Shown: positions 18,065-33,370 of the stretch, piece by piece
Layout of the letters: the number at the start of each line of letters is the position of its first letter
Numbering within the stretch: position 1 is the stretch's first letter
Assembly (NCBI GenBank): GCA_016281815.1
Contig: JAEEJK010000054.1
Span: forward strand, 1 to 58,301
Source: Prevotella sp.
GTDB lineage: Bacteria; Bacteroidota; Bacteroidia; Bacteroidales; Bacteroidaceae
Length of the DNA stretch: 58,301 nucleotides
Reading direction: 5' to 3'
Position numbers and translations under genes: made by a program
The notes under the pieces: model-generated
Database searches by the model: none
What the model was told of the DNA's origin: nothing
The model's input: only the letters and a program-made list of their open reading frames with translations

Positions 18065-19267
18065 ATGACATCCATCAAGATCAAGTTCAGACCCTCGACC
18101 GTAGAGGGCAAGGAAGGAAGCATCTATTATCAGGTCATCCACCGCCGGGTGGTCAGACAACTGAACACAGACTACAAAGTTTTTGAAGAAGAATGGGACG
18201 AGAAGGAAGGAACCATCATCGTCACCGGTCCGCGCAGCAGCCTGCTCAGCAGCATCAAGGAGCGCATCACCTGGGACATTGCCAGGCTGAAGAAGGTGGT
18301 GGCAGAAATGGAGAGCAAGCAGAGCCGATACACCACCGATGAAGTCATCGCCCAATATCTGCGGCAATCGGAAGAGACCTCGCTGTTCGCCTTCATGCAC
18401 CATCTCATCGCAGAGTTGAAGCGGCAGAACAAGGTCAGGACCTCAGAGACCTATACCTCAGCGCTCCACAGCATCATGGCCTTCCTTGCGAACAACGACC
18501 TGCCTATCGACGGCATCAGCAGCGACCTCATGCTTCGATATGAGTCATGGTTGAAATCGAGGGATGTCCACATGAACACCATCTCATTCTATATGCGCAT
18601 CCTCCGTGCCGTCTACAACCGTGCGGTAGAGAAAGGATTGGTGGAGCAACGCCATCCCTTCCGCCATGTCTATACCGGCATCGGCAAGACCCTGAAAAGG
18701 GCCGTTCCCCTCAGCATCCTCAAAAAACTGAAGAGTCTTGACCTCACCTCCAAGCCCTCTCTCGAGTTTGCCCGCGACATGTTCCTGTTCAGTTTCTACA
18801 CGAGAGGGATGTCATTTGTTGATATGGCTTTCCTCCGGAAGAAAGACCTTCAATACGGCATTCTCACCTACCGCCGGCGGAAAACGGGGCAGTTGCTCAC
18901 CATCAAGTGGGAGAAATGCATGGAAGAGTTGGTAGCCAAGTACCGTCAAGAGACATCAGAAGACACCATCTATTTGCTGCCCATCATCAAGAAGACGGGC
19001 GATGAGCGCAGGCAATACACCAATGCGCTCCACCTGGTGAATTACCGTCTGCGCCAACTTTCTGACCTCATCCATCTCCAGCGCCCTCTGACCATGTATG
19101 TGGCCCGTCACTCATGGGCGAGTGCCGCCAAGAGCCAGAACATTCCCATCTCCGTCATCAGCGAAGGTATGGGGCATGACAATGAAGCCACCACCCAGAT
19201 CTACCTCGCGTCGCTGGAAAGCACCGTCGTCGACAAGGCCAACAAAAAGATTTTGGGATTGCTATAG
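18065..19267 (+). CDS. Tyrosine recombinase / phage-type integrase (Bacteroidetes type)
   Basis: A site-specific DNA recombinase of 400 residues. The N-terminal arm-binding-like region (1-85) is followed by a SAM-like core-binding domain (about 105-200) and the catalytic domain. Catalytic residues are Arg247 (TRGMSFVD), Lys273 (RRRKTGQ), Arg348 (YVARHSW), His371 (GMGHDNEATT) and the nucleophile Tyr380 (QIYLASL). The first His of the usual HxxR is Tyr345 here, a variation I recall from Bacteroidetes family members. There is no adjacent tRNA, excisionase, relaxase or transfer gene, so it is not obviously part of an intact integrative element. About 760 bases downstream lies a 21-bp inverted repeat that could be its substrate, making a promoter-invertase role plausible. 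Confidence 0.9.
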   Translation: MTSIKIKFRPSTVEGKEGSIYYQVIHRRVVRQLNTDYKVFEEEWDEKEGTIIVTGPRSSLLSSIKERITWDIARLKKVVAEMESKQSRYTTDEVIAQYLRQSEETSLFAFMHHLIAELKRQNKVRTSETYTSALHSIMAFLANNDLPIDGISSDLMLRYESWLKSRDVHMNTISFYMRILRAVYNRAVEKGLVEQRHPFRHVYTGIGKTLKRAVPLSILKKLKSLDLTSKPSLEFARDMFLFSFYTRGMSFVDMAFLRKKDLQYGILTYRRRKTGQLLTIKWEKCMEELVAKYRQETSEDTIYLLPIIKKTGDERRQYTNALHLVNYRLRQLSDLIHLQRPLTMYVARHSWASAAKSQNIPISVISEGMGHDNEATTQIYLASLESTVVDKANKKILGLL

Positions 19268-19288: not shown

Positions 19289-19564
19289 TCATTTGTCGTC
19301 ATAATGCCCGTATGCTGTAAGAACGAGCACAACTACTTCGGTATCGTGAATCTCATAAACAAGCCGATGTTTTTGGGTGATACGTCTGCTCCATTCGCCT
19401 GCACGATTGCCAGAAAGAGGTTCTGGTTTGCCAGTGCCAGTGCGAGGATGCTCTTTCAACTCGGCTTCCAATTTCAAAAGTTTTAGAAAAGCCTTAGGCT
19501 CTTCGTTCTTCAATTTTTTCGCATCCTCTATAGCCTGTTTCTGATACCTGATAGAGTAAGACAT
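19289..19564 (-). CDS. YoeB/Txe-family mRNA endonuclease toxin
   Basis: The 91 residues match the RelE-superfamily YoeB/Txe toxins, ribosome-dependent mRNA interferases. Key positions fit YoeB: Glu48 in GKPEPLSGN, Arg67 in QKHRLVY, and a C-terminal GHYDD motif (His87, Tyr88) corresponding to the E46/R65/H83 catalytic set. It is the downstream gene of a two-gene operon, 2 bases after the antitoxin stop. It sits between the recombinase and the restriction locus, where an addiction module could stabilise the island. Base composition is lower in GC than in the core genes. Confidence 0.9.
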   Translation of the reverse strand: MSYSIRYQKQAIEDAKKLKNEEPKAFLKLLKLEAELKEHPRTGTGKPEPLSGNRAGEWSRRITQKHRLVYEIHDTEVVVLVLTAYGHYDDK

Positions 19565-19566
19565 TT

Positions 19567-19800
19567 TTATATGCGATTAATAAGATCTTCGATGGTTTCA
19601 CCTTCTTTCAATTCATACGAAGGACCTTTCTTGGCCTCATCAATACGCTGGAAAAACTCTTCTTTTGTAAAAAGAGTTGCATCTTCTTTCTCTGCAACAA
19701 GTTTGCGCAAATACTTAACAGCCCTCCTCAGCAGATTCTCATCTTCTGCGATTATACTCATATTGCGAAGCATCTCCGCATTTAATTGTATGTTTGTCAT
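19567..19800 (-). CDS. Antitoxin of the YoeB/Txe-type module
   Basis: A 77-residue protein with a helical N-terminal region (LRRAVKYLRKLVAEKED) and an acidic C-terminal stretch (FFQRIDEAKKGPSYELKEGE) that resembles the toxin-binding tails of Bacteroidetes YoeB antitoxins. I chose the ATG at 19800 rather than an in-frame ATG at 19845, because a complete promoter (19821-19851) lies inside the longer version and the purine-rich AAAAAAGGAAGAAAT precedes 19800. It comes first in the operon, the usual order, so the protein can bind its own promoter and repress the pair. Confidence 0.8.
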   Translation of the reverse strand: MTNIQLNAEMLRNMSIIAEDENLLRRAVKYLRKLVAEKEDATLFTKEEFFQRIDEAKKGPSYELKEGETIEDLINRI

Positions 19801-19820
19801 ATTTCTTCCTTTTTTCAATG

Positions 19821-19851
19821 CAAAGATAGTAAAAATAATGTTCAATGCAAA
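19821..19851 (-). promoter_or_regulatory. Promoter of the toxin-antitoxin operon
   Basis: Minus strand: TTTG (CAAA at 19848-19851), 19 bases, then TATCTTTG (19821-19828), a full Bacteroidetes promoter. Transcription would start about 14 bases before the antitoxin ATG. The motif GCAAAG occurs twice here (19820 and 19847 areas) and could be an antitoxin-binding repeat. Confidence 0.8.
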
Positions 19852-20381: not shown

Positions 20382-23300
20382 ATGCCCATGAAGCAACAGA
20401 TAAATTGCGACAACCCTGTATTGAACAACCCTTATGAGGAACCGCAATACTATTACGACTCAGATGCCAATGGCAACATTGACTATGAGACGGTCAATAC
20501 AGGCCGTCGTCCTTATGGTTACGACATCAATATCGTACCTAAACGTGGACAACGTAGTATGTTTTCACAAGAAGACTTCGCTACAGCTGACCCCAATGCT
20601 GAATTCATCAACGAGATTCGTGCACAGGTGAAGAGCTGGCGTGAGGCCGACTACCCTAAGTCATCACGAATCACTCGTGAGTTGCTTCACTTTTGGTTTT
20701 CTAATCCTGAGCGCCATAATCAACTACAATTGTTTTTTTGCCAGCGTGAAGCAGTAGAAACAGCTATTTGGCTAAACGAGATTGCTGAGCGTGACCCTAA
20801 TGTGGGTAACTATCTATTGAATGAACTGACTGAACGGCGACACTCTGTTTCTGTAAACGATGAAGATGTTTTGCCACGCACAGCATTCAAGATGGCAACA
20901 GGCACTGGAAAGACCGTGGTCATGGCAATGATCATTCTTTACAACTATTTGAACAAAAGGGTGAACCCGATGGACACACATTATGCTGATCATTTTCTCA
21001 TTGTAGCTCCAGGCATCACCATCCGCGACCGTCTTGGGGTTTTGCAGATAGACCACAGCCATCGGGCCAACAATTATGAACGAACCGACTATTATCACCA
21101 GCGTGGCCTCATTCCACCACAGTTCGAAAAAGAACTTGGCGGACTGAACGCTTCTATCACTATTGTCAACTATCAGCAGTTCATGCCCCGCGTCTTCAGT
21201 GGGAAACATGCTTCTCCACTTGATGGCAAGGTGGTATACAGAGATGGCGAAATGCAAGTTCATAAGCAGACCGAAGACTACAGTGTTATGCTGGCACGCA
21301 TATTGGAGAAAGGCGTAAAAGGGAAACGAATTGTTGTTATTAACGATGAAGCCCACCACTGTTATCTCCCAAAGAAATCTAATGACAAGACCCTTACGAC
21401 AGAAGAAAAGGACGACGTGAAGCAGGAAAACGAGGCGGCTATGGTGTGGTACGAAGGTCTGCGCCAGATGAAACGATTAGGTTACAAACTACAGCATGTC
21501 TATGATTTGTCTGCCACTCCTTACTACTTAAAAGGCTCTGGCTACCCTGAATATTCGCTTTTTCCGTGGGTTGTGAGCGATTTCGGACTAGTTGATGCCA
21601 TCGAAAGTGGATTGGTAAAGATACCTTTCCTTCCGGCATATGACAACACCGAAGATCTCGATGAACCCAAACTGCGCAACATCTATCAGTTTGTGCGCGA
21701 CAAACTTCCGAAAAAAGGTGTTCGTGGACAGAGGAAAAAGGACAAAGAGGATGGAGGTGAGGCTACAGAACAGAAACCGCCCAACCTTCCTACGTTGCTC
21801 AATACAGCATTGGAGCAATTTGTCAAAGATTACGTGGATTATGACCGTGGATTACGTGCCGATTTTGAGGAGATGGGATCGTTATTAACAGCTCCTCCTG
21901 TACTTATAGTTGTTTGCAACAACACCACAGTCAGCCGAGAGGTTTTCCGACTTATCGCTGGCTACCAGGATGGGGTGAACGAAAACGGCGAACCCCGTTA
22001 TCGTCATGGAGCCTTTCCCGTGTTCTCAAACTACGATGATACAAACCTACCTAAGCCTAAGTTTCCATCACTGCTTATTGACTCCTCTGCGATTGACGAG
22101 GCTTCAGCTACAATTGATGAGGGATTCAAGCGAGTCTATGCCAAGGAGATTGAATCCTTCAAACGTGAATATGCCATCCAACATGGTTCGGGAAGTGCCG
22201 ACCAGCTAACGGATGCTGACATCCTACGTGAGGTAGTAAACACCGTAGGAAAACCCGGGAAACTGGGTGGTGACATCAAATGTGTAGTTTCTGTATCGAT
22301 GCTTTCTGAAGGATGGGATGCCAACACGGTGACTCACGTCTGCGGCATCCGTGCTTTCGGTTCCCAGCTGTTATGCGAACAGGTTGTGGGGCGTGCCCTG
22401 CGTCGGCAGAGCTATGACCTCTTACCTTACGACAAACTTGGGCGTAAGATTCCATCAAAGGATTTGCATAGGTACAAACCAGAAAACATTACCTATAAAT
22501 TTCCACCTGAATATGCACGTGTCATCGGTGTGCCTTTCAACACATTCAAAGGTGGGCAGGCTGTCACGACAAAACCACAGAAGCCTAAGACCATCATTCG
22601 TGCTTTGTCTGAGCGAATTGCTTTGGAAATAAAATTCCCTAATATCACAGGCTACCGTAGTGACAGTATTGACGGAAAATTGGAAGCAGATTTTACTGGG
22701 TTGGCCAAGTTCAGGCTGGACTTCAACAGAATTCCAACTGAGACTGTTCTTCAAACAATCGTAAATAATGATAAGAAATTACTTAAAACTGACTGCGAAG
22801 AATTGCGTGATCAGCAGGTCATTTACTATTTTACGCAGCTGATGATTCGTGAGTACTACTTTAGTGAGGAACATGGACGACAATTTCAGAAGGTTCCTGA
22901 CATCCTGAAAATAGTAAAGAAGTGGTATGATGAACAATTGGAAATTGTCGGAGGTGATGGTTCGCCTAAACAAAAGCGTCTGGTCATGCTTTGGACTTAT
23001 ACTGACGTTCTTCACAATATCTATGAAGGTATTCGACAGGCGAACGCCGACCACGAGGAAATTTCAGCAGTGCTTAACTACTACAACCCCGAAGGTTCCA
23101 CACGTTATGTATTCCGCCCCACGAACCAGCCAGTATTACCTACGGAAAAGAGCCATGTTAACCTTGTCGTTGGAGAACCTGAATCATGGCAGGACGTGGC
23201 TCGTCGCACGCTCGACAAAATGGAATGTGTTGAAGCGTGGGTGCGTAACACCTATCTTGGTTTCCGCATTCCTTACTCTGTTGGTGACGAGCAAAAAGAA

Positions 23301-23543
23301 TATGCTCCTGATTTGATAGTACGAGTTCGCATAAGTAATGAACGTACAGCGAATATCATTGTTGAGTGCAACGACTTCGACAATGACAACAGCGGAAATA
23401 GGGATACAAAACGTCACTTCCTCACAAATTACTGGTTACCGGCAGCCAATGTATTGAAAACATACGGAGAATGGCATCTGTTGGAAGTACGTGATATTGA
23501 ACAAATGGAAGAAGCAATCAAAGAAAAAATACAGCAACTATGA
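20382..23543 (+). CDS. Type III restriction enzyme-like helicase-nuclease (Res subunit; BPTD_3080-type)
   Basis: A 1053-residue superfamily 2 translocase/endonuclease. The N-terminal region has the NPVLNNPYEEP opening seen in this restriction family, then Walker A ATGTGKT (172-178), DEAH (322-325), motif III SATPYY, SEGWDANT and the arginine-finger motif QVVGRALRR. Near the C-terminus a PD-(D/E)xK-like nuclease core is visible: Pro976-Asp977, Glu995 and Asn997 (IIVECND), with Asn in place of the usual Lys. It probably cleaves DNA lacking the partner methylation, in complex with the next gene product, whose start overlaps its stop (ATGA). An alternative start lies two codons downstream. No promoter faces it in the present orientation. 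Confidence 0.85.
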   Translation: MPMKQQINCDNPVLNNPYEEPQYYYDSDANGNIDYETVNTGRRPYGYDINIVPKRGQRSMFSQEDFATADPNAEFINEIRAQVKSWREADYPKSSRITRELLHFWFSNPERHNQLQLFFCQREAVETAIWLNEIAERDPNVGNYLLNELTERRHSVSVNDEDVLPRTAFKMATGTGKTVVMAMIILYNYLNKRVNPMDTHYADHFLIVAPGITIRDRLGVLQIDHSHRANNYERTDYYHQRGLIPPQFEKELGGLNASITIVNYQQFMPRVFSGKHASPLDGKVVYRDGEMQVHKQTEDYSVMLARILEKGVKGKRIVVINDEAHHCYLPKKSNDKTLTTEEKDDVKQENEAAMVWYEGLRQMKRLGYKLQHVYDLSATPYYLKGSGYPEYSLFPWVVSDFGLVDAIESGLVKIPFLPAYDNTEDLDEPKLRNIYQFVRDKLPKKGVRGQRKKDKEDGGEATEQKPPNLPTLLNTALEQFVKDYVDYDRGLRADFEEMGSLLTAPPVLIVVCNNTTVSREVFRLIAGYQDGVNENGEPRYRHGAFPVFSNYDDTNLPKPKFPSLLIDSSAIDEASATIDEGFKRVYAKEIESFKREYAIQHGSGSADQLTDADILREVVNTVGKPGKLGGDIKCVVSVSMLSEGWDANTVTHVCGIRAFGSQLLCEQVVGRALRRQSYDLLPYDKLGRKIPSKDLHRYKPENITYKFPPEYARVIGVPFNTFKGGQAVTTKPQKPKTIIRALSERIALEIKFPNITGYRSDSIDGKLEADFTGLAKFRLDFNRIPTETVLQTIVNNDKKLLKTDCEELRDQQVIYYFTQLMIREYYFSEEHGRQFQKVPDILKIVKKWYDEQLEIVGGDGSPKQKRLVMLWTYTDVLHNIYEGIRQANADHEEISAVLNYYNPEGSTRYVFRPTNQPVLPTEKSHVNLVVGEPESWQDVARRTLDKMECVEAWVRNTYLGFRIPYSVGDEQKEYAPDLIVRVRISNERTANIIVECNDFDNDNSGNRDTKRHFLTNYWLPAANVLKTYGEWHLLEVRDIEQMEEAIKEKIQQL

Positions 23544-26143
23544 AGTTAGACAATATCAGACCCGTTACAAGTATCAAGCACGAGGACAAACGAGTTGCCA
23601 TACCCGATAGTGAGCATCAGGGAGAGGAACAGGCTGTGCTTAACTGCGAACCCGCACAAAGTGAATATGACGTGTTCCGTCATGAGTTTCAGCGTGGCAG
23701 AGACCCAGAACTCTACTGGCTTGGCAAATATCGCAACGACGACGAGGAAAGTCCCGACCGCATGCCACAGCTACGAACCGACATCCGTTCACTCTATAAG
23801 CACGAGGATGTGCGACCTGAAGCCATCATCGACAACCTATATATGCTCCATGAGCATCACGAGGAGGGCAACACGCAACTCGACCTCTTCAGACCTGGCG
23901 ATTTTTTTGACCAGGAGGAAGAGGATGAATTGGAACGTTTGGCAGGATACTACCGACATGCTGACAACTGGCAAAACCGACTCATTCAAGGCGACTCACT
24001 ATTGGTAATGAACTCCCTGCTGAATCGAGAGGGTATGAAGGGACAGGTGCAGTGTGTATATATGGATCCGCCTTATGGTATCAAATATGGCGGAAACTGG
24101 CAGATGCGTATGAATAGCACAAACGTCAAAGAAAGTGATGGTGGCATTAGCAGTGAGCCTGAAATGATAAAAGCTTATCGTGACACATGGGAGCTTGGCA
24201 TCCACTCGTACCTTTCCTACCTACGCGACAGGCTAGTGCTTGCCCGCGAACTACTCACGGAAAGTGGCTCATGCTTCGTGCAAATATCAGATGAGAATGT
24301 GCATCTGGTGCGCAATCTGATGGATGAAATATTTGGCAGCGAAAATTTCGTAAGTCTTATCACCACAAAGAAAAGCGGCGGTATGAGTGAACAGATTATA
24401 AACAACATTTCTGACTATATTATCTGGTATGCAAAAGATAAATCAATAGTTAAGAGTAGAAAGTTGTTTATTCCTAAAGTTCTTACAGAGGGAGCTGGGG
24501 CAAGATATAATCGTGTAGAAGAAGCTGATGGCAGCATCAGACCAATTAAACTTGTAGAGCGATTGGATCCGAATACTTTGCCTAAAGGAGCAAGGATTTT
24601 CTTAGGTGGTCCATTAACATCACAGACACCAAGTGATACGACTAGTTTTGCTTACACTTTTGGCGGAAAAACATATACACCAGGAAATAGAGGATGGAGT
24701 ACAAATATTAAAGGTATGGATAAACTAGCTTCCATTGGAAGAATCTTACAGACTAAAGGGTTTATCAATTTTAAAATATATTTTGATGATTTTCCGGTTA
24801 CAAACCTAAGTAATTTATGGGATGATACAATGGGAACTGCAGAACAAGACAAATGCTATGTAGTTCAAACATCAATGAAGCCTATTCAACGCTGTATCCT
24901 TATGACTACCGACCCAGGAGACCTTGTCCTCGACCCCACCTGTGGCAGCGGTACGACTGCTTATGTGGCAGAACAGTGGGGCCGCCGATGGATTACGATG
25001 GACACCAGCCGTATAGCCTTGAACATTGCCAAGAAAAGACTCATAACAGCCCTATATCCCTATTACAAAACCCACGACGAGAGCGAACATCCTAACATCC
25101 GTCATGGGTTCAAATACAAAACGGTACCACACATTACACTAAAATCTTTAGCCAACGACTTGCCCGCTGACGAAGAGGTGCTTTACGACAAACCCGAGGA
25201 AGACAAGAAGCGCATCCGAGTGAGTGGTCCATTCACAGTGGAGACACTACAAAGTCATGATGTCAGTTCACCTGAATCGCTGAATGACAAACGCTTGGAT
25301 TACGATGAGTACGCACTCTTCACAGACCGCATTTTCAACAATCTGCGTTCGAATGGTATACGCAACGGTATCAAGCAGCAGCAGGTAGTGATGCACACGG
25401 TGGAGCGCCTGGATGATGCTTATCTGAATGCTCGCGCCTACTACAAAACAGAGGACGGACTGGAGCACTGTGTTTACATCATGATTGGCCCTAAGTTCGG
25501 TACAGTAAGTAAACATGCTGTCAACGAAGCCATCCGTGCTTTCCGGCATCATTTGGATGAATCTAACTGGCTCGTCCTCTTAGGTTTCTCGTTTGAAGAT
25601 ACCATCGATACAAAAGAATATGACTTCGGAACGTTCCAAGTGTCGAAAGTACGGATGAACGACGACCTGCTACAGGACGGACTGCTGAAAAAGGACAAAA
25701 AAGCAGGTTCGTTCATCATCATCGGCGAGCCTGATATTGCCATCATTCGTGACTGCGAAACAGAGGGGCATGTGGAAATACGGGGCATGGATATGTATGA
25801 TCCTATCCAAGACGAAGTGAAAGCACGAAACGTAAACGATATTGCCTATTGGGAGATGGATGATGAATATACTGGCTCGCTTTTCAAAGTACGCAGCATA
25901 CACTTCTGCGGTGGTGACAAGAAAGACTTTGCTGCCTGGCGTAAAGGTCTAACTACCGTAGCGAGCGATATGGCCAAGAAAAAGGCCGAGCATACCCTGC
26001 GACTGAAATTCAATGAAGAAGTGTGGGAACGACTCTATGATTTCCGCTCCGAACCCATCAAATGGGAACAAGGTAAGAAAATTGCAGTTCGGGTAGTCTC
26101 TCAATTCGGTGAAGAAAGCACCAAAGTCCTAACAATGGAGTAG
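23540..26143 (+). CDS. Beta-class DNA methyltransferase (Mod subunit, N4/N6 amino-methylating)
   Basis: An 867-residue site-specific DNA amino-methyltransferase that should protect host sites from the overlapping upstream restriction enzyme. Motif IV DPPYGIKYGG starts at Asp176 and the SAM-binding motif I LDPTCGSGTT comes later (about 465-474), the beta-class order seen in type III Mod proteins. The region between them (about 270-455) is the likely target-recognition domain and its DNA is much more AT-rich than the flanks. A long C-terminal region (about 540-867) has no motif I recognise and may contact the Res subunit. It starts within the stop of the upstream gene (4-base overlap). Confidence 0.88.
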   Translation: MKLDNIRPVTSIKHEDKRVAIPDSEHQGEEQAVLNCEPAQSEYDVFRHEFQRGRDPELYWLGKYRNDDEESPDRMPQLRTDIRSLYKHEDVRPEAIIDNLYMLHEHHEEGNTQLDLFRPGDFFDQEEEDELERLAGYYRHADNWQNRLIQGDSLLVMNSLLNREGMKGQVQCVYMDPPYGIKYGGNWQMRMNSTNVKESDGGISSEPEMIKAYRDTWELGIHSYLSYLRDRLVLARELLTESGSCFVQISDENVHLVRNLMDEIFGSENFVSLITTKKSGGMSEQIINNISDYIIWYAKDKSIVKSRKLFIPKVLTEGAGARYNRVEEADGSIRPIKLVERLDPNTLPKGARIFLGGPLTSQTPSDTTSFAYTFGGKTYTPGNRGWSTNIKGMDKLASIGRILQTKGFINFKIYFDDFPVTNLSNLWDDTMGTAEQDKCYVVQTSMKPIQRCILMTTDPGDLVLDPTCGSGTTAYVAEQWGRRWITMDTSRIALNIAKKRLITALYPYYKTHDESEHPNIRHGFKYKTVPHITLKSLANDLPADEEVLYDKPEEDKKRIRVSGPFTVETLQSHDVSSPESLNDKRLDYDEYALFTDRIFNNLRSNGIRNGIKQQQVVMHTVERLDDAYLNARAYYKTEDGLEHCVYIMIGPKFGTVSKHAVNEAIRAFRHHLDESNWLVLLGFSFEDTIDTKEYDFGTFQVSKVRMNDDLLQDGLLKKDKKAGSFIIIGEPDIAIIRDCETEGHVEIRGMDMYDPIQDEVKARNVNDIAYWEMDDEYTGSLFKVRSIHFCGGDKKDFAAWRKGLTTVASDMAKKKAEHTLRLKFNEEVWERLYDFRSEPIKWEQGKKIAVRVVSQFGEESTKVLTME

Positions 26144-26164
26144 CAAATTGTAATTGTCTGTCTT

Positions 26165-26953
26165 ATGCGAACCTGGATAATACCCATCTATGCTACAAGT
26201 TTTGACTTCGGTCGTGCCCTATATGAAGGACATGACACAATGGATTGGCGTATGTCCTCTCACCCTTTCGAGGTGGGCGATGAGGTGTGGCTGGCGGTGA
26301 AAGATCCATTTGTAAGGCTGGCTGTTCAACTGGAAATTACTGCTGTTGGCCTGACTGAGGATGAAGCCAACGATCACCCAAAACTGTGGCGAGACCTCGC
26401 AGCTTACTACGATGGCATAGGACGTTTCCGCTACGCCCGCATGAAAGTTACAGGAGGCGCACAATCGTTGTACTATAGTTTAGAAGCCTTGCATGAGCAT
26501 GGTCTGCAAGGGTCACTGGCTGGAGTCGTGGAGGTGAAAGATGAGCAGTTACTTCGCTTTCTTCATGAAGAAGACTTCACTGACACGCCAACTGAACCTG
26601 ACTCTTCCTGCGAAGTGGATTATCCTGCCGATGCTCAACTTTATGAGGGAGCTGTTGTTCAAGTGCTTGCCAACCGCTATGAGCGCAATCGAAAAGCGCG
26701 AGAACAATGCATAGTCCTGAAAGGACCACGCTGTGCAGTATGTGGCATGGACTTCTTAGAAACATACGGTGAAATCGGTCGAGATTTTATCCATGTACAC
26801 CATTTAGTACCCATCAGCAGTATTGGCAGTGAATATGAGCTGGATGTTAAACGCGATCTTGTGCCTGTTTGCCCCAACTGCCACTACATGCTACATCGCA
26901 AGAACCCTCCATACACAATAGATGAGATAAAGAAAAACCTAAATAGACACTAA
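26165..26953 (+). CDS. HNH endonuclease with EVE/PUA-like N-terminal domain
   Basis: A 262-residue protein starting 21 bases after the methyltransferase. The first 110 or so residues (WIIPIYATSFDFGRAL, then HPFEVGDEVWLAVKD) look like an EVE/PUA-type modified-base reader. The C-terminus is a McrA-type HNH nuclease: zinc cysteines 190 and 193 (RCAVCG), the HVHHL metal site (His210, 212, 213), and CPNCH (236-240) followed by HRKNPPYTIDEI. By analogy with McrA-like enzymes it may cut DNA carrying modified bases, complementing the restriction pair that should attack unmodified DNA. It could also be an accessory nuclease of the complex. The EVE assignment is less secure than the HNH one. Confidence 0.8.
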   Translation: MRTWIIPIYATSFDFGRALYEGHDTMDWRMSSHPFEVGDEVWLAVKDPFVRLAVQLEITAVGLTEDEANDHPKLWRDLAAYYDGIGRFRYARMKVTGGAQSLYYSLEALHEHGLQGSLAGVVEVKDEQLLRFLHEEDFTDTPTEPDSSCEVDYPADAQLYEGAVVQVLANRYERNRKAREQCIVLKGPRCAVCGMDFLETYGEIGRDFIHVHHLVPISSIGSEYELDVKRDLVPVCPNCHYMLHRKNPPYTIDEIKKNLNRH

Positions 26954-26958
26954 ATGTT

Positions 26959-27162
26959 ATGACAGTAGAACAAAGGATATTAGCATCTTTTGGCCTAAAG
27001 AAATCAGACCTCACAGAAGAATTGTGGAAGAAAGTACAAGAAACGGCTAATATGGAAAGATCTTGTAGAAAATCCAAGATTCCAACACTTATAAACAAAC
27101 CTCTTTTGCGTGAGCTTTCTTTATTAGCAGAGAATCTCAATAAGCATAAAGATCAGTGGTAA
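26959..27162 (+). CDS. Small hypothetical protein of the defence locus
   Basis: A 67-residue, highly charged, mostly helical protein (LKKSDLTEELWKKVQETANM) with no recognised motif. It starts 5 bases after the HNH gene stop and reads in the same direction, so it probably belongs to the same transcript. A small inhibitor, adaptor or DNA-binding subunit is conceivable, but nothing in the sequence shows it. It may be a chance frame, although position and codon pattern look natural. Confidence 0.5.
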   Translation: MTVEQRILASFGLKKSDLTEELWKKVQETANMERSCRKSKIPTLINKPLLRELSLLAENLNKHKDQW

Positions 27163-27186
27163 ATGTAAAGACATTGTGAAAGAAAC

Positions 27187-27231
27187 ATTATAATAGCAAA
27201 ATTAAATAAATTATAATAGCGAAATTAAATA
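27187..27231 (+). repeat. Two 22-bp tandem direct repeats upstream of the Z1 gene
   Basis: ATTATAATAGC(A/G)AAATTAAATA occurs at 27187-27208 and 27210-27231 with one mismatch and a 23-base period, 14 bases before the Z1 start. It is the main sequence in the 82-base gap within the operon. It could be a regulator-binding pair or an internal AT-rich promoter. Confidence 0.7.
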
Positions 27232-27244
27232 ATAAGAAATAAAT

Positions 27245-30200
27245 ATGGCAAACGAAGTTATCTACAAATCCAAAGCGGAATGTTTGGCAGCAATCAACAC
27301 TTTGAAAGCTGTGGGCATGGATGCCCTTCCTTGGCAACTGAAACAGTTAAAGGAGTTTGAAGAAGCAGAAAAACAATGTGCAATTGACCCTAATAGTCCA
27401 ACTCCTATTTGGGATACCTTGCGCAAAAACTATCCTTATGGGAAAATGCCTCAGGAAAAAATTGACTGTGTTGAAAGTTCGGTCAATCAACTTCTGGAAG
27501 AAGGAGCGCATGCGGAAGAGCCCGGACTGCTACTCGGTAAAATTCAATGTGGTAAGACGGACACCTTTGAGGACATTATTGGTCTTTCCTTTGACCGTGG
27601 TGTGGATATAGCCATTGTGATAACTAAAGGTACTAAGGCTTTAGTGAAGCAAACTATCATGCGCATGAAGCATGATTTCCGTTTCTTTAAGGCATCGGAG
27701 GACCGAGATCCGCGCGAAACTATTAATATCTTTGATGTGATGGACTTGAAGAAGCGTGGAATAAGGCAAGCGCAGGTGGTCTGCAAAAACGTGATTGTCT
27801 GCAAGAAAAACAAAAAGAATCTGGAACACCTGATGAACATCTTCACTACATTGAATCCGTATCTAAAGCAGAAAAAGGTGATAATCGTGGATGATGAAGC
27901 AGATTTCGCCAGCCGTAACTACCGTGCAGTAAGTCTTCAGGCAATGACTGATGCAGATGGCAACCCCATTAGGCAAAAACGCGAAATAGAAATGGCGAAG
28001 ATAGCGCAGCAAATAGATGATTTCCGTAAGATTCCATACTTCTGTCGTTATCTTCAGGTGACCGCTACACCATATTGCCTCTACCTACAACCTGGTGGCG
28101 AGCTCAATCTGAACGGGAAGGTAGTGAAACCGTTTAAACCTCGCTTTACTAGCCTTGTGCCTGAGCATGACCGCTACATTGGTGGAAAACAATACTTCGA
28201 GGATTCACTGGATGAAGAGTCTATGTATAGTCACTTGTACCACCAAATTGACCCGAAGTGTGTCGATGTGATGGGGCACGAAGATAAGCGCTATTTAAAC
28301 AATTCGGTTTCCTCTGGTAACATCTATGGCTTGACTTATGCATTGGTGGCTTACTTTACTGCTACAGCTATCCGCCGTATTCAAGAAGCTAACAACTACA
28401 TGACAAGTGCCATCATCCATGTGGACATAGACAAACGAAGCCATGACTGGCAGCGCCGTATAGTTACACGTCTAATCAATGACATCAAGAAAGCCTTTGT
28501 TGATGAAGACCAGTCTGACCTTCGTGTGTGGAGTGCTTTTGATACTATCTATGAAGATTTCACACGGTCAAATGAAAAAGGGCGCAATCAAGGGTTGATT
28601 ACAGTTGAAATACCTTCCAAGGAAGATGTTCTTGCTGGCATACGTGACATCTTTAATCCTCAGGAGAAGAAGTATCACATCCAGCCAGTTAATTCAGACG
28701 AAGATATGGAAACACTGCTTGACGAGGAAACTGGTGAGCTGGAACTGACAACTGCTGCCACTATTTTTATTGGAGGAAATATACTCGACCGTGGTGTTAC
28801 CATCAAACACATGCTCTCCTTCTTCTATGGCCGCAATCCGAATAATTTCCAACAAGACACAGTTCTTCAGCATGCCCGAATGTATGGTGCACGCTCAAAA
28901 GAAGATATGGCCGTGATGCGTTTGCACACGACTCCAGCCATCTATAAAATATTGTCGCGCATGAACACACTCGACAATCAACTTCGTCAATGGTTCATAG
29001 AAGGAAAGGACAAGGAAGAGCCTAATGCTGTATTTGTGGGCTTTGATAAGAACATCTCGCCATGTGCCACCTCAAAGATTAAGGCATCTAATGCGCTTAC
29101 ACTTCAACCCGGAAAGATGATTCTGCCTGTAGGTTTTTGGACTGGAAGCAATACAGCCATCAAGAAAACAATCGAGATGATTGATAAACTTATTACAGAA
29201 TCACCAAACTATGGGAAGCAGGACGAGAATGGATTCTTTGAAATAGATAAAGGAACCGTGATGGAAATCCTAAAACTGATTCAAACGACCTATGTCTATA
29301 ATAAGGATTTATTCAATACCGACCGCAAAAACGACATCTACGAATTGATGTGTGCATTGGAATATTGTACTTCAACCTCTGGAAACAAGCTCTATGCTAT
29401 ACATCGAACTGGCCGTAATATGAACCGTATCAGAGAGAACGGTGGATGGATTGATGCACCTGCCGATGGTCGTACAGATGTGGCACCTTCACGCGAGGTA
29501 GCTTCTGACCAGCCAGTTATCATGTTCATCAAGGAAAACGGTGCGAAGAAAAAGAACGAAGAAGGGAAAAACATTGGATGGAACGATGCTCCATTTTATT
29601 GGCCTGTTCTAATGACACAAAAGTGCCTAACGCCTGTGATGTATGCCTACGATCAAGTGCCTAAAGGTGAAGCTGCCGTTATTGATGTATCTGACTTCTT
29701 TGAAGGAATAGACATGAAAGACGTGCTTTCATTGACTTTCAAAGGAGATTTGTCAAGATTTGGTGAAGAGGGAACTGAATATTCTGAAGAAGAGTATGAA
29801 ATTGAGTCACGTGACCTTAAAGAAACTACTGCATCAAAATACATAGAAAAGGATGAACATGGCAATTGGAAGATTAATCCTGATGTGGCATTTGATGAGA
29901 ATAACTATCATGGTATTTACTCTTTCAACAAAGGAGTATTCCCATTCGTGTTCCGTCCATACAAGTATATGTTCTTGCGTAACAAACGAGACGCATCAGC
30001 AGATCTAATGCTAATGGAACTGGCACCTATTAGTGCTTGGAGTACTATACCTGGTGGTTCAATCGATGAGAAGGGAGACCTTATTGATGTTGAGACAAAG
30101 GAGGTTTTGGCGCATGCCTATGACAATATTCTTACTAAAAACTTGGAAGAGCATCAACTGCAGGATCAATCATTCTGTGAGTGGAAAATCTTCTATGCAA

Positions 30201-30283
30201 TAAAGAAAATTTTAAAATACAAACGTAATTCTCAAGACATTAATTGGGATAAAATATTTGAAGGAGAGCAGGAAAACGAATGA
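27245..30283 (+). CDS. Z1-domain superfamily 2-type ATPase
   Basis: A 1012-residue protein with the Z1 domain, a helicase-like ATPase fold known mainly from restriction-linked gene clusters. Motifs are Walker A GKIQCGKT (98-105), Walker B VDDEAD (215-220), a motif III-like TATPY, then GGNILDRGVTI and QHARMYGAR corresponding to motifs V and VI. The C-terminal third (about 700-1012) has no motif I recognise and is acidic near EEEYEIESRD. It overlaps the SprT-like gene by 4 bases (ATGA), so the two products are probably made and used together. Likely a DNA translocase or remodeller in defence; substrate unknown. Confidence 0.85.
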   Translation: MANEVIYKSKAECLAAINTLKAVGMDALPWQLKQLKEFEEAEKQCAIDPNSPTPIWDTLRKNYPYGKMPQEKIDCVESSVNQLLEEGAHAEEPGLLLGKIQCGKTDTFEDIIGLSFDRGVDIAIVITKGTKALVKQTIMRMKHDFRFFKASEDRDPRETINIFDVMDLKKRGIRQAQVVCKNVIVCKKNKKNLEHLMNIFTTLNPYLKQKKVIIVDDEADFASRNYRAVSLQAMTDADGNPIRQKREIEMAKIAQQIDDFRKIPYFCRYLQVTATPYCLYLQPGGELNLNGKVVKPFKPRFTSLVPEHDRYIGGKQYFEDSLDEESMYSHLYHQIDPKCVDVMGHEDKRYLNNSVSSGNIYGLTYALVAYFTATAIRRIQEANNYMTSAIIHVDIDKRSHDWQRRIVTRLINDIKKAFVDEDQSDLRVWSAFDTIYEDFTRSNEKGRNQGLITVEIPSKEDVLAGIRDIFNPQEKKYHIQPVNSDEDMETLLDEETGELELTTAATIFIGGNILDRGVTIKHMLSFFYGRNPNNFQQDTVLQHARMYGARSKEDMAVMRLHTTPAIYKILSRMNTLDNQLRQWFIEGKDKEEPNAVFVGFDKNISPCATSKIKASNALTLQPGKMILPVGFWTGSNTAIKKTIEMIDKLITESPNYGKQDENGFFEIDKGTVMEILKLIQTTYVYNKDLFNTDRKNDIYELMCALEYCTSTSGNKLYAIHRTGRNMNRIRENGGWIDAPADGRTDVAPSREVASDQPVIMFIKENGAKKKNEEGKNIGWNDAPFYWPVLMTQKCLTPVMYAYDQVPKGEAAVIDVSDFFEGIDMKDVLSLTFKGDLSRFGEEGTEYSEEEYEIESRDLKETTASKYIEKDEHGNWKINPDVAFDENNYHGIYSFNKGVFPFVFRPYKYMFLRNKRDASADLMLMELAPISAWSTIPGGSIDEKGDLIDVETKEVLAHAYDNILTKNLEEHQLQDQSFCEWKIFYAIKKILKYKRNSQDINWDKIFEGEQENE

Positions 30284-30966
30284 TAGCGACCATACAATAT
30301 GTAGAAAAGAAGTTTGAGGAGTATAACCAACAGATGTTTGCTGGTCAGCTTCCCAAACTTCCCATTGAATTGAGTGATGCCAAAACATTCCTCGGGAAGT
30401 GTGTCTGTCGAAAACGTATTAATCCTGAAGGGAAAACGGAGTATTACGATTTCCGTTTGCACATAAACACACGTATAAATCTCCCAGAACAGGAGGTCGA
30501 AGATACCATCATTCATGAAATGATACACTATTTCATTAAATGGAACCAGATGGAAGACACATCTTCTCATGGTCCCATCTTCCAACACATGATGAACAGC
30601 ATTAACGAGAAATATGGTCGTCATGTTACTATCCGTCACGAAGGAACAGAAGAGCAAAACGAACAGGCTATAGACAAACGTCAGCATTGGCATGTTGTAG
30701 CAGTTGTTCATTTCAAAGATGGAAGGACAGGAATCAAGGTATTGCCAAGAGTGATGCCCAGCATTGTCAACTACTACACTAAAATTGTTGCGACAAAAGA
30801 TGTTGTCAATATTGACCTCTTCATGAGCAATGACGTTTTCTTCAATCGCTATCCGAATTCTTCGGCATTGAGAGTTTACTATATGGAAAAGGATGAAGTG
30901 ATGCCACATCTTACAGATGCCAAAACACTCTCCATAAAAGGGCAGAAGGTGTTAATCAACGACTAG
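30280..30966 (+). CDS. SprT-like zinc metallopeptidase
   Basis: A 228-residue protein with an SprT-type zincin domain: HEMIH at 79-83 (catalytic Glu80) and the third-ligand segment SHGPIFQHMM (His97). Eukaryotic Spartan/SPRTN of this fold cleaves DNA-protein crosslinks. The usual C-terminal zinc ribbon is missing; residues 130-228 form a separate region without known motif. It overlaps the end of the Z1 gene, which suggests a two-protein module in which the ATPase delivers DNA-bound protein to the protease, or in which the protease activates the system. That role is inference. Confidence 0.82.
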   Translation: MIATIQYVEKKFEEYNQQMFAGQLPKLPIELSDAKTFLGKCVCRKRINPEGKTEYYDFRLHINTRINLPEQEVEDTIIHEMIHYFIKWNQMEDTSSHGPIFQHMMNSINEKYGRHVTIRHEGTEEQNEQAIDKRQHWHVVAVVHFKDGRTGIKVLPRVMPSIVNYYTKIVATKDVVNIDLFMSNDVFFNRYPNSSALRVYYMEKDEVMPHLTDAKTLSIKGQKVLIND

Positions 30967-31101
30967 CCCCATTTTCTCAAAATGATCAATCCATCTGGGT
31001 ATTATAGAAGTATAACTTCAACGTAAGAACAAGCAAAAGATAAATCAAAAATCATAGTGATTTTGGAGGCCAAACATTAAGAGGATGAGGCTTAGGATAA
31101 A

Positions 31102-31275
31102 GCTTATGCCCTTGCTGGGCGCGTTCCCCTTCACACTAAAAACCCAGGGCGTTGCCCTGGGCTGATTGCTTGGTGGCCTTACAGGCCGTAGTTTTTACAA
31201 CATGTGAAGCAGGGCCGTAGTTTTACAAATTGTGGAGCAGGCTTTTGTACGGGACATGCATAAAGCAAGTCCATA
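31102..31275 (+). repeat. Dispersed repeat, copy 1
   Basis: A 71-base core (31102-31172) matches 33261-33331 at 64 of 71 positions. It holds two hairpins: GCCCT-TGC-like near 31108 and a perfect 8-bp stem CCCAGGGC/GCCCTGGG around GTT (31143-31161). An approximate 30-base tandem duplication beginning GGCCGTAGTTTT follows (31183 and 31213), then a tail GGGACATGCATAAAGCAAG (31251-31269). It fills most of the 360-base gap after the SprT gene; no gene is seen there. Confidence 0.8.
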
Positions 31276-33209: not shown

Positions 33210-33260
33210 GTGTTTTTTTTCAATATAGAATTGTTTGTTATTCATTTTAACATAAGAAAT

Positions 33261-33370
33261 GCTTATGCCCTTGCAGGGCGCATTTCCATTCACACTATCA
33301 ACCCAAGGCGTTGCCCTGGGCTGATTGCTTGTCAGGACATACATAAAGTAAGGCCCAACGAATTGCACTG
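33261..33370 (+). repeat. Dispersed repeat, copy 2
   Basis: The 71-base core (33261-33331) matches copy 1 in the same orientation. The CCCAAGGC/GCCCTGGG stem has one mismatch. The tail AGGACATACATAAAGTAAG (33334-33352) follows directly, without the 30-base duplication of copy 1. Together with the gdhA promoter this accounts for the 33096-33603 gap, in which I see no gene. Confidence 0.8.

Follow-up and report, generated by a model that had tools for sequence, protein, structure and literature searches.

In a 58,301-nucleotide stretch of Prevotella sp. DNA (contig JAEEJK010000054.1, hereafter the window), a motor protein with a reader-like tail and a SprT-like metallopeptidase with an intact active site are encoded together, next to systems that act on DNA. 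We infer that the two form a portable add-on to defence systems. Their genes, 27245..30283 for the motor (a Z1 ATPase in the first-pass annotation, made from the sequence alone) and 30280..30966 for the metallopeptidase, belong to a six-gene + strand locus, which we confirm as first described. The annotation had read it as a layered defence of a restriction (Res) and methyltransferase (Mod) pair, an HNH nuclease and a protein-stripping motor and protease; taken overall, this interpretation is supported in part.

The motor and the SprT-like metallopeptidase

The metallopeptidase has a SprT-like domain (PF10263, 55 bits) and matches the structure 6mdw with both phmmer (4.4e-10) and Foldseek (1.2e-5). 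It carries the HExxH motif and third histidine of the SprT/Spartan proteases, HEMIH and H97 being invariant across 34 aligned rows (alignment A2). A further domain profile has no match in the window protein; among its stand-alone kin, of which two were scanned, that of L014 reaches 24.6 bits (cut-off 21.2), that of L012 stays under the cut-off with 16.0 bits, and the 287-residue protein of L043 has no match. In the metagenome homologues P0125, P0126, P0128, P0151 and P0158 the C-terminal domain is doubled, and because of this doubling the sequences suggest that it binds something repeatedly.

The partner systems of three SprT cases are Res-Mod, bacteriophage exclusion (BREX) and McrBC. The BREX genes PglZ, BrxC and PglX were found in the relative L045, and none of them among the ten window proteins covered by our domain and PADLOC scans. 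In the mechanism we propose, the motor would travel along DNA that the host system has engaged, and the protease would take off the proteins met on that DNA. Ocr-like DNA mimics inhibit both type I restriction and BREX.

The similarity of SprT to Spartan, a DNA-protein-crosslink protease, would also fit a pair that serves DNA repair, as would the fact that all three partner systems work on DNA, but we consider this role unlikely. We hold it equally doubtful that the pair is a mere restriction subunit, since it is not tied to a single enzyme; because of this independence, clearing of DNA by motor and protease is preferred to both roles. An explanation concerning the whole co-directional gene set is less probable still. 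In its favour, the genes are tightly packed in the same direction; weak further support is that the SprT and HNH matches agree in longest-contig size on two contigs of at least 4 kb (0.12 expected), though one of them (5191) differs in source labels (ena, ncbi).

The restriction pair and the HNH nuclease

The Res-like helicase-nuclease (20382..23543; Res) scores 956 bits against NF046055, the BPTD_3080 family of restriction endonucleases, above the curated cut-off of 800. As to a PD-(D/E)xK site, in alignment A5 D977, E995 and K1010 are invariant in seven of seven sequences and the canonical ExK is present in none of the seven. Against type III profiles, its top PADLOC score is 22.6 bits (REase_III). 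Mod (23540..26143), an N6/N4 methyltransferase, matches PF01555 (110 bits) and PADLOC MTase_III (548 bits), and its DPPY precedes an FxGxG-type motif; the beta-class order together with the type III profile places it with the EcoP1I type.

In BPTD_3080-family pairs on the plasmids examined, Res precedes Mod, with other cargo between or behind. On plasmid NZ_AP019789.1 (L034:7992-17186) such a pair, with one gene in between, is immediately followed by phospholipase and nucleotidyltransferase genes of a cyclic oligonucleotide-based antiphage signalling system (CBASS); restriction and CBASS are packed together here.

The third gene (26165..26953) encodes a putative nuclease of the EVE-HNH type, whose predicted substrate is modified DNA. 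The HNH domain of these Type IV enzymes is found (PF01844, 29.9 bits, cut-off 21.4), with matches to PADLOC mREase_IV (26.5 bits) and the McrA-type HNH structure 6ghc (4.4e-6). The EVE domain has no match in the window protein or in P0247, and reaches 25.6 bits (cut-off 23) in the homologue P0280.

Surroundings of the pair

Upstream of the motor lie a + strand feature at 27187..27232 and the gene of a 67-residue protein (26959..27162, GC 0.35). The latter had no family match in profile searches and, outside the window's own copies, one chance match (E 0.64) in the compared loci.

A + strand tyrosine recombinase (18065..19267; PF13102, PF17293, PF00589) lies at the left border of a low-GC stretch in the GC profile and is a possible mobility gene. 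Between it and Res, a YoeB-type toxin gene (PF06769, 69.5 bits) and an adjacent gene, likely the antitoxin, occupy 19289-19564 and 19567-19845 on the - strand. To the right, a 74-base element (core CCCAGGGCGTTGCCCTGGGCT) occurs at 31099-31172 and 33258-33331 with 89% identity, possibly a repeat family of the host genome, copies being counted within the window.

Comparison with known systems

For the MZA anti-phage system, the MzaC equivalog scores 47.9 bits, far under the family cut-off of 1500. The restriction systems CglI and NgoAVII (M, R and N proteins) combine a 5-methylcytosine methyltransferase with a phospholipase D (PLD) family nuclease and have no SprT; none of the ten window proteins matches PLD at E <= 1e-3, and the window's pair, unlike these systems, accompanies BPTD_3080, BREX and McrBC loci. 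PDLC03202, which PADLOC names "Type II helicase domain protein", is a single-gene model for helicase-like proteins of type II loci, silent on SprT and on BREX or McrBC partners.

With the Spartan/SprT DNA-protein-crosslink proteases the window protein shares fold and active site; it differs in its C-terminal domain and in being encoded with a defence-linked motor. According to PMC7213743, the antirestriction protein ArdC of plasmid R388 likewise has a Spartan-like metallopeptidase domain within a restriction conflict, shielding incoming plasmid DNA with a protease activity reported as dispensable. As ArdC shows, such a domain can occur on the plasmid side too, whereas the window's SprT gene sits in host defence loci.
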